NCBI GenBank assembly: GCA_944386905.1
Contig: CALXCW010000003.1
Location: 1 to 48,583 of the forward strand
Reading direction: 5' to 3'
DNA from: an uncultured Oscillospiraceae bacterium
Lineage (GTDB): Bacteria; Bacillota; Clostridia; Oscillospirales; Oscillospiraceae
Length of the DNA: 48,583 bases
The notes below the pieces were generated by a model. That model was not told where the DNA came from and did no database searches. It was given only the letters and a program-made list of their open reading frames with translations. The translations under genes were made by a program, and so were the position numbers. Positions 10,699 through 48,419 of the stretch are shown here, piece after piece. The first letter of the stretch is position 1, and every line of letters begins with the position of its first letter.

Positions 10699-11925
10699 TC
10701 AGTTCTGCAGCAGCGCTTTATGAAATACCTTTTTGCCTTTACGGATCTTGAGCCCAACGCGGAGATCGTCAGCGGTGAACTTTACGTCAATGGTGGGTAC
10801 CTTCTCGTCGTTGACAAACACGCCGCCCTGCTGCACCAACCGCCTCGCTTCGGACTTGCTGGGCGCCAGCTTGCAGGCCAAGAGAAGATCGAGAATGGCA
10901 ATGGAGCCGTCGGTGAGCTGTTCCGCAGCAAGCACCGTAGTGGGCATATCGCTGTCATCGCTGCCGCCGCCGAAAAGGGCCTTGGCCGCGGTCTGGGCTT
11001 TGTCGGCCTCCTCCTGACCGTGCACCAGTTTGGTAAGCTCATAGGCAAGGATGGCTTTGGCCTCGTTGAGCTGGCTGCCCTCCCAACCGGCCATGGCATC
11101 GATTTGTTCCAGTGGCAGGAATGTGAGCATACGGATGCACTTCATCACGTCGGCATCGTCCACGTTGCGCCAGTACTGGTAGAAATCAAAGGGTGAGGTC
11201 TTGTTTGGATCCAGCCATACGGCACCCTTGGCGGTCTTGCCCATCTTCTTGCCCTCGGAGTTGAGGAGGAGGGTGATGGTCATGGCGTGGGCATCCTTGC
11301 CCAACTTACGGCGGATGAGCTCTGTGCCGCCAAGCATGTTCGACCACTGGTCGTTGCCACCGAACTGGAGGTTGCAGCCGTAGTGCTGGTAGAGGTAGTA
11401 AAAGTCGTAGGACTGCATGGGCATGTAGTTGAACTCCAGGAAGCTCAGTCCCTTTTCCATGCGCTGCTTAAAGCACTCGGCGCGGAGCATGTTGTTCACA
11501 GAGAAGCAGGCGCCTACATCCCGAATAAAATCGATGTAGTTGAGTTCCAAGAGCCAATCGGCGTTGTTGACCATCATGGCCTTTCCTTCGCCAAACTCAA
11601 TAAACCGTTCCATCTGCTTCTTGAAGCAGTCACAGTTGTGCTGGATAGTCTCCCGTGTCATCATGGAGCGCATGTCGGTACGACCGGAGGGATCGCCAAT
11701 CATGGCAGTGCCGCCACCGATAAGGGCGATGGGACGATTCCCGGCCATCTGGAGGCGCTTCATCAGGCAAAGGGCCATAAAATGGCCCACGTGGAGAGAG
11801 TCGGCGGTTGGATCAAAGCCGATGTAGAAGGTGGCCTTTCCTTCGTTGATCAGGCGGCTGACCTCTTCTTCGTTGGTCACCTGGGCAATGAGGCCGCGGG
11901 CTACCAGTTCTTCATAAAGTGTCAT
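10699..11925 (-). CDS. tyrS: Tyrosyl-tRNA synthetase
   Basis: Charges tRNA-Tyr. Class I synthetase with HVGH (45-48) for HIGH, GGNDQWSNMLGG for tyrosine binding, KMGKT for the KMSKS loop, and a C-terminal S4 RNA-binding domain (about 345-405, PSKSEARRLVQQGGVFVNDEKV). The ATG at 11925 has AAAGGA upstream and overlaps the stop of the M28 peptidase by 4 nt (ATGA). Both genes sit under a tyrosine T-box (12871-13122). Confidence 0.98.
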   Translation of the reverse strand: MTLYEELVARGLIAQVTNEEEVSRLINEGKATFYIGFDPTADSLHVGHFMALCLMKRLQMAGNRPIALIGGGTAMIGDPSGRTDMRSMMTRETIQHNCDCFKKQMERFIEFGEGKAMMVNNADWLLELNYIDFIRDVGACFSVNNMLRAECFKQRMEKGLSFLEFNYMPMQSYDFYYLYQHYGCNLQFGGNDQWSNMLGGTELIRRKLGKDAHAMTITLLLNSEGKKMGKTAKGAVWLDPNKTSPFDFYQYWRNVDDADVMKCIRMLTFLPLEQIDAMAGWEGSQLNEAKAILAYELTKLVHGQEEADKAQTAAKALFGGGSDDSDMPTTVLAAEQLTDGSIAILDLLLACKLAPSKSEARRLVQQGGVFVNDEKVPTIDVKFTADDLRVGLKIRKGKKVFHKALLQN

Positions 11926-12869
11926 CGATCTGTTCCTTTCTTCGCTTCTTGCTGCGATAGAATCTGAAGGCAGAAAGTACGCAGCAGAAGAATATTTTTT
12001 TCTTCTAGTATGGTATCTTTTGCAGTGTGGATGCGACCTAAATAGAAAATTCCACCTCGAGTTTTGCGCAGAGCCGCAATGCCAACACCCAGAGGAAACT
12101 GCATTTGATCAGAGGGATAGAAGTATACCCCCCTGCCAGCCAAGCGGATCTCCTTCGTCCCGTCCTGCACGCAGCCACTTTGCAGCTGTGCAGCCAGCCG
12201 AGGGTTCTTTTTTACGTTCTTTTTGGGAAAGAGCAGAATATGATCCCCGTCGCCCACGCAGTCGAAATTCAGTACCAGCTGCCGACTGGATGCCTTACGG
12301 TGAGTCCTGCGATAGCCCGCCGAGCCGAAAAGGCCAGCTTCCTCCAGATCGAAAAGGACAAAACAGACGTTTTCACGCTGCTCCTGCGGCAGTACGGCCA
12401 TGAGATCCAGCACCGTGAGGACGCCGGAGGAATTGTCATTGGCATTGGTGGGATTGGCGGGGCCAAAGAGCATGAGAAACAGCAGAAGTAAAAACAGCAC
12501 TTCCGCCGTGACACCGGCTACCAGCGGCTCCCGCACCAAAATCCCAACCGCAATGCCAATCACACTGGGTATCAGGATAATGATAGCACACAGAAACAAC
12601 TGATAGAGAAGATAAATCCACACATGGCAAGGCGTGATAAAATTGGGAATGGGCAGCCTGGCACAGGTATCATAATGAGCGGTGATGAGGTAAGTGGCAT
12701 GCTCGGGATTACCAAATATCACATTTTTAGCGCCAAAGGCCCCAGCTTCTACCTTCCCCGCATAGCCCCGTGCTGCTCCAAAAGCCAGCGCAGCATCACG
12801 AAAGGCCGCCTTCTGTTTTTTGGATTTTCTTACGGGATACTGCTCAATAAGTTCCCGACCAAACAGCAC
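11922..12869 (-). CDS. M28-family zinc peptidase with membrane segments, first gene of the tyrS T-box operon
   Basis: Predicted aminopeptidase-type zinc hydrolase. Metal-site motifs of M28: TAHYDT, NDNSSGVLTVLDL, DLEEAGLFGS (Glu pair), NFDCVGDGD and a late His in LGRIHTAKDT. Between the first two motifs is an insertion with two hydrophobic helices (YLLYQLFLCAIIILI and VTAEVLFLLLLFLMLF), so it is membrane-bound with an uncertain active-site side. The start is GTG at 12869: it follows the T-box terminator, whose 3' strand contains the AGGGGG site. A longer frame to 12920 would translate the T-box itself. Co-regulation with tyrS suggests a role in freeing tyrosine from peptides; that is inference. 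Confidence 0.8.
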   Translation of the reverse strand: MLFGRELIEQYPVRKSKKQKAAFRDAALAFGAARGYAGKVEAGAFGAKNVIFGNPEHATYLITAHYDTCARLPIPNFITPCHVWIYLLYQLFLCAIIILIPSVIGIAVGILVREPLVAGVTAEVLFLLLLFLMLFGPANPTNANDNSSGVLTVLDLMAVLPQEQRENVCFVLFDLEEAGLFGSAGYRRTHRKASSRQLVLNFDCVGDGDHILLFPKKNVKKNPRLAAQLQSGCVQDGTKEIRLAGRGVYFYPSDQMQFPLGVGIAALRKTRGGIFYLGRIHTAKDTILEEKNILLLRTFCLQILSQQEAKKGTDR

Positions 12870-12870
12870 A

Positions 12871-13122
12871 AAATCGCCCCCTGTCCTGTATAGACAGAGG
12901 GCGAAATTTCGCGGTACCACCTCATGTTCGCCGCAGCCTCGCAGTTACGGCCTCACGGAGTCGGAGACTCTCAAGCTATAACGGGCATACCCGGCAAACC
13001 CTACTGCAAATTCAGGCCGCAGCTCCAAGGCGTATTCGGGCAGGGTGTCCGCCTCCTTCCACCAACCGGAGGCTCTCTTGAGGGCAATCACTACCGTACT
13101 CTTCCTTTTCCTCGCTTGTAAC
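12871..13122 (-). promoter_or_regulatory. T-box leader, tyrosine specifier
   Basis: tRNA-sensing antiterminator. On the minus strand: AGAGAG followed by a hairpin with GGTTGGTGGAA (stem I distal part, 13076-13050 region), specifier GAATACGCC with UAC for tyrosine (about 13037-13029), then the T-box GAGGTGGTACCGCG (about 12922-12909) and a terminator stem CGCCCTCTGTC / GACAGGGGGCG followed by ATTTTGT. Uncharged tRNA-Tyr should stabilise the antiterminator and allow M28-tyrS expression. The downstream ribosome binding site lies in the terminator stem. Confidence 0.93.
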
Positions 13123-13128
13123 GACACC

Positions 13129-13157
13129 ATCTTACCAGACACCGGCCTATTTGTCAA
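13129..13157 (-). promoter_or_regulatory. Sigma-A promoter of the T-box operon
   Basis: On the minus strand TTGACA (13157-13152), 17-bp spacer, TAAGAT (13134-13129). It overlaps the recN stop codon. Confidence 0.85.
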
Positions 13158-14806
13158 CCGGAAAGCATCTCTTCAGCGCTGCGCAGCGTTGTTTCCGTAA
13201 TCTCGGCACCGCCGATGATCCGCGCAATCTCCCGCGTCCGGCCAACATGATCCAGGGCCGTCACTTGGGTATAGGTTCTCCCCTGCCGCTCAGATTTGGC
13301 GATGAGCAAGTGCACATCTGCTGCTGCGGCAATCTGGGGAAGATGGGTGACACAAAGTACCTGCTTGCTGCGAGAGACGCTGCGGAGCTTCTCGGCCACC
13401 TTCTGTGCGGCACGGCCACTGACGCCGGCGTCTACCTCGTCAAAAATCAGCGTTCCTACCTGATCCTGCTCAGCAAGCACATTTTTGATGGCCAACATAA
13501 TTCGCGCCAACTCACCGCCGGAGGCCACCTTACTCAGCGGTTTGAGCGCCTCGCCCACATTAGCCGTCATCAAAAATCGAAGCTGATCCATACCTGTGGG
13601 TGAAAGGGGGATCTCCTCCAACTCGCAGACAAATTGGGCGCGGGGCATGTCTAATGCGGCGAGCTCCGCAGAGAGCCGTCGTTCCATCTCGCTGGCTGCA
13701 GCCTGCCGCGTCTTGCGCAGGGCAAGGCCGGCCGCCTCAGCGTTAGTCGTCGCCGCCTGGAGCTCCGCATCCAGCATCTCAAGCCGCTCCTCGGAAAAGG
13801 TAATCTCGTCCAGTTCCTTCCTGGCTTTCTCGGCATATTGAAGGATCTCATCCACACTGCCGCCGTACTTTCGCTTCAACCGATGCAGTATATCCAGACG
13901 GATCTCGATTTGCTCCAACTCATCACCGGAGTAAGCCAACTGTTCCAGTCGGTCTCGAAGCTCTTCCGCGATGTCTTGGGCCTCACACTGAAGGGCAGAG
14001 ATGCGCTCTGCAAAAGGCTGGAGGGTTTCATCAAAACGGATTATGCGGGCAAGGCTATGTTCTGCTTCCCCCAGAAGATCCGCAGCACCGGACGTCTCTT
14101 CGCCGCCATAGAGAGCTTCCACGGCCGAGGCCAGGTATTCAGAGAGCTTTTCGGCGTTTTGAAGGCGCTTGCGCCGCTGTTCCAAGTCCTCATCCTCGCC
14201 CACCTGCAACTGGGCACGACCAATCTCCTCCAACTGATACTCCAAAGCCTCCACCCGGCGGAGTTTTTCGCCTTCGTCCATGGAAAGACGCTCCTTCTCC
14301 CCGCGCAGTGCTTGCACTCGTGCAAAAGCCGCGTCGTACGCCGCCCGGGCAGCGTCATTGCGTGCAAAAAGATCCAGATACCCCAAATGCTTTGTCTCGT
14401 CAAAGAGCTGTTGAGAATCGTGCTGACCATGGATATTTACCAGCAGGCTCCCCAGGCGCTTTAAGATCGCCACGGTGACTGGTCTTCCGTTAACGCGGCA
14501 GACATTCTTGCCGTCGGCGTAGATCTCCCGCTGTACTAAGAGCTCTGCCCCATCATAAGGCACTCGATTGTCCGAAAACCACGAAAGCTCAGGCACACCG
14601 GCAAACACGGCGCTTACAAAGGCCCGATCTGCCCCGGTGCGGATCACATCGCGGTAGGTGCGCTCCCCCAGGATGGCAGAAATGGCGTCGATCACAATGG
14701 ATTTGCCGGCGCCGGTTTCGCCGGTGAGAACATTAAAGCCCTTTTCAAAAGGAATCTCTGCCTGCTCAATAACGGCGATGTTCTCGATGTGGAGCAAGCT
14801 AAGCAT
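13154..14806 (-). CDS. recN: DNA repair protein RecN
   Basis: SMC-like ATPase for double-strand break repair. Walker A GETGAGKS (29-36), long coiled-coil arms in the middle (about 150-370), C-terminal ABC signature SGGELARIMLAIK and Walker B TLIFDEVDAGVSG. The length of 550 is normal. ATG at 14806 with GGGAGGG upstream. Last gene of the oapA-dxs-tlyA-nadK-argR-recN series. Confidence 0.97.
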   Translation of the reverse strand: MLSLLHIENIAVIEQAEIPFEKGFNVLTGETGAGKSIVIDAISAILGERTYRDVIRTGADRAFVSAVFAGVPELSWFSDNRVPYDGAELLVQREIYADGKNVCRVNGRPVTVAILKRLGSLLVNIHGQHDSQQLFDETKHLGYLDLFARNDAARAAYDAAFARVQALRGEKERLSMDEGEKLRRVEALEYQLEEIGRAQLQVGEDEDLEQRRKRLQNAEKLSEYLASAVEALYGGEETSGAADLLGEAEHSLARIIRFDETLQPFAERISALQCEAQDIAEELRDRLEQLAYSGDELEQIEIRLDILHRLKRKYGGSVDEILQYAEKARKELDEITFSEERLEMLDAELQAATTNAEAAGLALRKTRQAAASEMERRLSAELAALDMPRAQFVCELEEIPLSPTGMDQLRFLMTANVGEALKPLSKVASGGELARIMLAIKNVLAEQDQVGTLIFDEVDAGVSGRAAQKVAEKLRSVSRSKQVLCVTHLPQIAAAADVHLLIAKSERQGRTYTQVTALDHVGRTREIARIIGGAEITETTLRSAEEMLSG

Positions 14807-19402: not shown

Positions 19403-19424
19403 GGCGCCCCTCCTCTTCTGTTCA

Positions 19425-20062
19425 AAAAAATAATGGCGGCAGGCAAGATTAAACTTACGGCTTAGGTCGGGTAGGATTTCCCCAGGCGCTGCTCCCCGTC
19501 GCCGGCGGAGTGGTTTCCCATCAAAGCTCCCGTCTTTCCGTCGCCAAGAAAGCGACCCGATTGCCACTTAGTCCGTACTGCAATCCCTTACCTGCCCAGT
19601 GTGACAGCCTAGGTGATTTCCACAGCAGCGCCCTCCGACTCTTATCCTCTTTTGCAAGCAGGCTTTCGAGCGGCAATATCATGCGCACCCCTGGCCGGGG
19701 GTTTGCATGCCTGACACCGCTTTCCCGATCTGCTCACGCAAGGCAGGCTACTCTGCACACAGCGTTCCGGCAAGCCTTCACACCGCAATACAGGTTCACA
19801 TCCTGCCTCGTACAGAAGTCGCTGACCACTAAGGGAGTACGCCTCTGCACAATAGCAGGTCTCCGCAGCGGCAGGGTCGGGATCCTCATGCCATTGAGGG
19901 TCGCCCTTCCGCCGCAGGCGTAATTGCTACGCCTTCCTCCAGCACTCACCCCAAACTGGGCGTAAGAAGCAAGCACCAAAGGTTTCACAGTTATGCCCTT
20001 TAAAGGATTTTTAGGCCCTTCCTGGGAGCCGGCGGCGCTGACTAGGATACTGCGCCATTATT
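19425..20062 (-). ncRNA. ole: OLE RNA (ornate, large, extremophilic)
   Basis: A gap of about 650 nt with no credible protein gene, GC-rich against its AT-rich flank and full of hairpins, for example GGCGTA/TACGCC (19917-19922/19928-19933), ACCCC/GGGGT around 19690-19705, and GTCGC/GCGAC near 19545. A promoter with the start expected at about 20062 precedes it, and oapA follows. OLE RNA is about 600 nt, occurs in Firmicutes in the isoprenoid operon between ispA and dxs, and is followed by oapA; size, place and neighbour agree. Ends are approximate. Identification rests mainly on context and structure, since no covariance search was run. Confidence 0.87.
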
Positions 20063-20068
20063 TTTAAC

Positions 20069-20097
20069 AGTATATCACAATATTCATGGATATACAA
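20069..20097 (-). promoter_or_regulatory. Sigma-A promoter of the OLE-oapA-dxs operon
   Basis: On the minus strand TTGTAT (20097-20092), 17-bp spacer, TATACT (20074-20069). The transcript would start near 20062, at the left limit of the structured region. Confidence 0.75.
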
Positions 20098-48342: not shown

Positions 48343-48419
48343 CCGGGTGTGGCGAAGTTTGGTATCGCGCTTGGTTCGGGTCCAAGAGACCGTGGGTTCG
48401 AATCCCGCCACTCGGACCA
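48343..48419 (+). tRNA. tRNA-Pro (anticodon CGG)
   Basis: 77 nt cloverleaf with encoded CCA. Acceptor CCGGGTG pairs with CACTCGG (one G:U). The anticodon stem CTTGG/CCAAG encloses TTCGGGT, giving CGG, which reads proline CCG. T arm GTGGG-TTCGAAT-CCCGC is regular; D arm GCG/CGC with GGT loop. Confidence 0.96.

Follow-up and report, generated by a model that had tools for sequence, protein, structure and literature searches.

Transcriptional and translational classes of T-box riboswitch have been described (PMC7778990) and contrasted with each other (PMC10907184). According to these two papers, the antiterminator of the class II, translational T-boxes at actinobacterial ileS genes competes with a strand that carries the Shine-Dalgarno sequence (SD), which aminoacylated tRNA would hide. 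Independently of tRNA sensing, bifunctional terminators whose hairpin lies near a start codon and also sequesters the ribosome-binding site (RBS) have been proposed, and the paper concerned states that none had been demonstrated by experiment up to 2010 (PMC2965389). As for the genes controlled, the C. difficile T-box targets given in the accessible main text of PMC11477304 are synthetases, amino-acid metabolism, transporters and an ACT-domain protein, and the word peptidase does not occur there. Our literature search, whose reach did not include the main comparative surveys (Vitreschak 2008; Gutierrez-Preciado 2009), found no paper on an M28 or other peptidase under a T-box, nor on a T-box with SD sequestering; no paper was found on a T-box with EamA and tyrS. 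The M28 peptidase described here joins the genes seen under T-boxes, and is unreported in the papers that the search reached. We propose that the locus is probably a class I (transcription-terminating) Tyr T-box operon carrying a clade-specific passenger gene, with the peptidase in a variable slot.

The window, that is, the whole stretch of 48,583 nucleotides that was analysed, belongs to a genome (G000) of 1.99 Mb in 227 contigs, 81% complete, and all features of the operon lie on its minus strand. A recN-like gene (13154..14806), named by reading its ORF, precedes the operon, as it adjoins the T-box-tyrS unit in many relatives. A motif scan placed a sigma-70-like promoter, TTGACA-17-TAAGAT (13129..13157), with its -35 box overlapping the recN stop codon; it has 10 of 12 consensus matches, one such promoter being found against 0.4 expected in shuffles, and TTGACA-17-N6 boxes were seen by eye at the equivalent place in loci L101 and L012. 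Then follows the T-box leader (13121..12894), from Stem I to the antiterminator, which matches Rfam RF00230 over its full length (model 1-219) with 119.2 bits, above the curated gathering score of 93 (E 6.6e-26). The covariance alignment puts a UAC (Tyr) specifier codon at 13034..13032, in the context GAA-UAC-GCC, so that the full tyrosine T-box claimed in the first-pass annotation is borne out. The same genome encodes a tRNA-Tyr with anticodon GUA that ends in discriminator A plus CCA, and the UGGU bulge (12916..12919) of the T-box motif GAGGUGGUACCGCG (12923..12910) complements its ACCA 3' end. With a full-length model match, a Tyr specifier, a UGGN bulge, an antiterminator and a terminator, the leader is like the known T-box riboswitch. 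It is unlike a plain T-box-tyrS unit, the direct arrangement of 44 of the 84 relatives with a T-box core in the ranked-list survey below, in that an M28 gene stands between leader and tyrS and has its SD inside the terminator.

The intrinsic terminator TCGCCCTCTGTCTATACAGGACAGGGGGCGA (12904..12874), located by folding and by a terminator search, has a 13-bp stem and a 5-nt loop; its segment reaches -27.5 kcal/mol, shuffles of it -10.3 on average (z -7.2), and none of 200 shuffles did as well, which agrees with the stem reported earlier. CGCCCUC is a strand of both the terminator and the antiterminator (GAGG..CCUC plus the A2 helix), so the classic switch applies, an intrinsic terminator competing with the antiterminator as in class I; by its presence the terminator sets the leader apart from class II, where there is none. 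A run of TTTT (12873..12870) follows the stem, and directly 3' of it stands the GTG (12869..12867) that starts the peptidase; the gap, earlier given as 2 nt beyond the terminator, is in fact this four-base run. The U-run is short (UUUU GUG CUGUUU), and termination could therefore be leaky. By homology, T-box transcriptional control of the peptidase and tyrS is very likely: on the known T-box mechanism, uncharged tRNA-Tyr would stabilise the antiterminator, letting RNA polymerase read through into both genes, and with charged tRNA-Tyr the terminator would form.

The peptidase gene (11922..12869; 315 aa) ends in a TGA (11924..11922) that overlaps the ATG (11925..11923) of tyrS (10699..11925; tyrosyl-tRNA synthetase, TIGR00234, 406.9 bits). 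The ATGA overlap on which translational coupling had been proposed is therefore present, although tyrS also has its own SD, GAAAGGA, located within the 3' end of the peptidase gene. An overlap of this type occurs in four of nine M28-slot loci (L015, L021, L083 and L100); as the sole route to tyrS translation it was rejected, given the AAAGGA-containing SD before tyrS in all nine. We likewise rejected a longer peptidase ORF from an in-frame GTG at 12920, within the T-box motif, because this start is not conserved: L082 has its equivalent GTG in another frame, 49 nt ahead of the start, and in L100 the frame is broken by a stop codon.

The SD-like AGGGGG that precedes the peptidase start (12882..12877, 7 nt from the GTG) belongs to the 3' strand of the terminator, as first noticed on reading the sequence. 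In the unconstrained fold it is sequestered by the terminator stem, each letter having a probability of being unpaired of 0.000-0.001, in line with the earlier proposal that the terminator hides the RBS; in this respect the hairpin does what the class II element does. With the antiterminator forced, the corresponding probabilities are 0.015-0.945 for the SD letters and 0.009-0.921 for the start GTG; a weak hairpin, rich in G-U pairs, then joins the SD to the U-rich start region and leaves four of its six letters mostly paired, and thus the release of the RBS is not clean. Folded in isolation, the post-terminator segments reach -7.3 kcal/mol in the window, -5.0 in L082, -3.7 in L101, -2.2 in L012, -2.0 in L085 and -0.7 in L100; those of L100, L012 and L085 are nearly open, the window and L082 less so. 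We judge the chances that an added translational lock acts on the peptidase to be about even.

The locus is like the class II T-boxes of actinobacterial ileS, as the consulted parts of PMC7778990 and PMC10907184 present them, in that the strand competing with the antiterminator holds the SD. It is unlike them in that its hairpin is also shaped like an intrinsic terminator and followed by a U-run, in a leader that was scored with the general Rfam T-box model. Compared with the RBS-sequestering terminators of PMC2965389, which it resembles in placing a terminator hairpin near a start codon and hiding the RBS in it, it differs in that the hairpin is part of a tRNA-sensing T-box and in that the layout recurs with several different downstream genes.

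This recurrence was followed through the relatives. The layout of a Tyr T-box driving an M28-tyrS operon, with AGGGGG in the terminator 3' strand and the M28 start right after the U-run, is found again in L082 (G097), L101 (G165) and L100 (G259), with homologous starts that are GTG in the window, GTG in L082 and ATG in L101. In L012 a zinc-ribbon ORF (a weak Pfam match, E 1.3e-4, below the cut-off) begins at this position and M28 comes second, with its own SD; the ORFs that begin 6-8 nt past the stem in L085, L086 and L126 belong to EamA. An embedded RBS accordingly recurs in four M28 loci (L021, L082, L100, L101), one zinc-ribbon locus (L012) and three EamA loci. In all 47 loci where tyrS follows directly, 19-113 nt separate its start from the stem and there is no embedded RBS, against 7 of 49 insert loci with one (p 0.012; a post hoc comparison, with starts taken by reading and L101 left out). 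Ambiguous starts (L064, L068, L077, L110, L131, L134, L154) were counted as not embedded. A terminator was found in 96 of 97 loci, and for a few inserts (e.g. L075, L158, L173) the stem picked is intragenic and not the leader terminator. The window genome has 11 T-boxes, and for the other 10, as judged by eye, the downstream start lies past the terminator with an ordinary SD of its own. Among the nine M28-slot loci, five (L014, L015, L016, L019, L083) have the M28 start at a greater distance from the terminator, in most cases with an SD-like stretch of its own; given these, and M28 in second place in L012, the M28 clade as a whole does not keep the embedded RBS.

Between the Tyr T-box and tyrS lies a gene slot whose content changes fast, and the peptidase is one of its occupants. 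We surveyed 110 loci taken off the ranked list of tyrS matches in the same family, which is the fairer count and still favours close relatives: 84 have a T-box core, which in 44 lies within 180 nt of tyrS (direct) and in 40 is separated from it by an insert. A wider count of 127 loci (97 with core, 47 direct and 50 with an insert) includes loci fetched for M28 near tyrS. The remaining 26 of the 110 (two with short upstream sequence) are without a core by motif pattern rather than by covariance search, and divergent T-boxes may have escaped this pattern; Stem I was checked only loosely, by 'AGAGA'. Named from Pfam, with a locus counted once per family, the inserts are EamA (16), zinc-ribbon (13, a type to which the inserts of L079 and L120 belong), C_GCAxxG_C_C (6), M28 (3), MBL (2), NUDIX (2), RibD_C (1) and GNAT (1), and two loci have none of these families; HD-domain inserts occur in L095 and L110, outside the 110-locus list. 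Occupants differ even under one genus label: g87 holds EamA (G212), RibD_C (G086, G157) and HD (G293, G256), and g30 holds EamA (G273, G122), a zinc-ribbon (G184) and GNAT with a zinc-ribbon match (G234). EamA-family transporters are the commonest genes between Tyr T-box and tyrS in this family (L068, L077, L085, L086, L126, L131, L134 and others), and the one in the slot is a candidate tyrosine or aromatic amino-acid transporter.

Long gaps between core and gene are commoner at tyrS than at the other synthetase genes compared. Among loci with a core, the gap from core to gene exceeds 350 nt in 12 of 25 for tyrS, against 2 of 30 for pheS, 0 of 27 for thrS and 1 of 15 for ileS (12/25 versus 3/72 for these three together, Fisher p 2e-6). 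This control used the 30 best loci per gene, setting aside those without a core (tyrS 5, pheS 0, thrS 3, ileS 15), and the 15 of 30 ileS cores were recognised by a looser motif pattern, a stricter first pattern having found 2 of 30. In two pheS loci, L240 (G072) and L243 (G039), 1.1-1.2 kb separate the T-box core from the gene.

M28 relatives (E<=1e-15) occur in 40 of 300 same-family genomes, and tyrS (E<=1e-60) in 270. The order T-box-M28-tyrS was read in L012, L013, L014, L015, L016, L019, G218, G097, G259 and G241, a list in which L012/G218 and L013/G097 are apparently the same records entered twice; in G165 the contig ends within an M28 gene that follows the T-box. In the window's own genus, M28 follows the T-box in five of six genomes (G000, G097, G218, G259, G165), the sixth, G296, being recN-[T-box]-tyrS without M28; G241 belongs to another genus and yet has T-box-M28-tyrS, as do the MAG loci L014, L015, L016 and L019. 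The records of L012, L013 and L020 are Candidatus Avoscillospira species. A tree of 47 M28 proteins puts the nine from the slot on one side of a branch with SH-aLRT 98, next to another group in which 14 of 15 rows are recN-adjacent, non-slot M28s (support 80). The comparative scan that the first-pass annotation had called for therefore gives a divided answer: T-box-M28-tyrS recurs, within one M28 clade, and outside that clade we found the arrangement set beforehand as counter-evidence, a T-box directly before tyrS, with the peptidase absent (G296) or elsewhere (G209, G290).

G209 and G290 have the order recN-M28-[T-box]-tyrS, which leaves M28 outside T-box control, and in G212, G086, G293 and G273 a further gene stands between the T-box and tyrS. 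No T-box core was found by pattern before tyrS in four recN-M28-tyrS loci, L084 (G291), L088 (G253), L089 (G154) and L092 (G080), and none of the RF00230 matches listed falls in them. In the more distant slot loci M28 identity is 44-53%, against 77-83% for tyrS. In the stretch 3159-3560 of L012 (G218) a zinc-ribbon ORF separates the T-box from M28, and the M28 start region of this locus, AGGGGGCGATGATGTGCTG, resembles the terminator arm and start of the window, AGGGGGCGATTTTGTGCTG; the window state could have arisen via loss of a zinc-ribbon gene, or the likeness could be due to chance.

The peptidase itself matches Pfam PF04389 with 63.5 bits against a gathering score of 21.3, and no NCBIfam model matched it. 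Seven residues, H65, D67, D145, E176, E177, D203 and H281, are invariant in the nine aligned M28 sequences, and we take them to be the M28 metal/catalytic set, neighbouring positions included. In an AlphaFold2 model built from nine sequences (mean pLDDT 86.3), two long helices (83-112 and 115-135) form an inserted membrane hairpin. Among the 50 Foldseek matches listed are M28 aminopeptidases and glutaminyl cyclases, mostly with query TM-scores of 0.45-0.58, and leucyl aminopeptidases come first in the sequence-profile search. With aminopeptidases and glutaminyl cyclases about equally good among those Foldseek matches, homology does not give the substrate specificity. The protein is thus like known M28 metallopeptidases, leucyl aminopeptidases and glutaminyl cyclases included, in Pfam score, fold and motif residues, and unlike them in that an insertion of two membrane helices separates its HxD motif from its NDN motif. 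No signal peptide was seen by eye, which together with the two-helix hairpin suggests a cytosol-facing catalytic domain; most likely, as predicted, this is a cytosol-facing aminopeptidase-type M28 enzyme. Comparison of the window peptidase with that of L012 gives dN 0.18 and dS 1.36, hence purifying selection.

How much of this anatomy is functional can be read in several ways. The broadest reading, which we put forward tentatively and hold to be doubtful as a whole, is that the Tyr T-box of tyrS carries in Oscillospiraceae a cargo slot where unrelated genes come and go, several of which recruited the G-rich terminator strand as RBS; such cargo would be locked in both transcription and translation until uncharged tRNA-Tyr appears, and tyrS in transcription only. 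Because the peptidase SD is the terminator 3' strand and the GTG follows the U-run, read-through transcripts that keep the hairpin would yield no peptidase and could still, judging from the anatomy, be translated for tyrS from its own SD. Set against this is a T-box that works by transcription only, the overlap of SD and terminator being a by-product of compact spacing and a G-rich strand with no effect beyond termination, for which we see a chance just short of even. In favour of a by-product, most loci have a GACAG(A/G)GGGC-like terminator 3' strand, with or without a start behind it, M28 starts later in the five slot loci named above, and terminated transcripts hold no gene to translate. 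A by-product explains less well why three gene families, but never a directly placed tyrS, have starts 4-8 nt from the stem, why homologous GTG/GTG/ATG starts follow the U-run in the window, L082 and L101, and why the SD has almost no unpaired probability in the terminator fold. Among the relatives the same terminator strand serves as RBS at some loci and not at others, a natural series by which the idea of an RBS-hiding terminator, proposed and then undemonstrated according to PMC2965389, becomes directly testable.

A tie between peptidase and tyrosine, as first suggested, would have the enzyme free tyrosine from cytosolic peptides or spent proteins at Tyr shortage while TyrRS is raised, with a dual lock at other times. 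The purifying selection and intact M28 motif residues speak for it, as does the retention of T-box-M28-tyrS within one clade despite an M28 that is far less similar than its tyrS, and EamA, a frequent slot gene, is a transporter family compatible with amino-acid supply. Nevertheless, a general link is not supported, as the slot is filled in 40 of the 84 ranked-list loci with a core, mostly by unrelated genes; occupants such as zinc-ribbon, C_GCAxxG_C_C, MBL, NUDIX, RibD_C and GNAT have no evident tyrosine role, M28 relatives in other genera sit after recN or elsewhere, outside T-box control, and homology is silent on the substrate. We consider the tie improbable, and a dedicated tyrosine-supply role, weakened by the several unrelated families in the slot, similarly unlikely. 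The gene turnover between leader and tyrS warns that T-box control alone is a poor guide to function. As to the origin of the arrangement, M28 may have been a recN-side gene around which the T-box moved, from recN-M28-[T-box]-tyrS to recN-[T-box]-M28-tyrS. The first of these orders does exist in G209 and G290, as it does in G212, G293, G273 and G086 if one more gene ahead of tyrS is allowed for, and in the tree the slot clade has the recN-adjacent M28s as its neighbours; but tree support at that point is weak, and recN-[T-box]-tyrS without M28 is the commoner order among the loci read, which makes insertion of M28 into the slot an equally simple course. We hold the move to be somewhat unlikely. 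On the preferred reading, that of a class I operon with a passenger, the M28 enzyme would have become an occupant of the T-box/tyrS slot in Oscillospiraceae relatives and would thereby have come under tyrosine-starvation control.

Elsewhere in the window, a full-length OLE RNA (RF01071, 419.8 bits, 1-616 of 616) lies at 19417-20074 on the minus strand, upstream of a dxs-like ORF, and a tRNA-Pro (CGG) is encoded at 48343-48416 on the plus strand, close to the window end.
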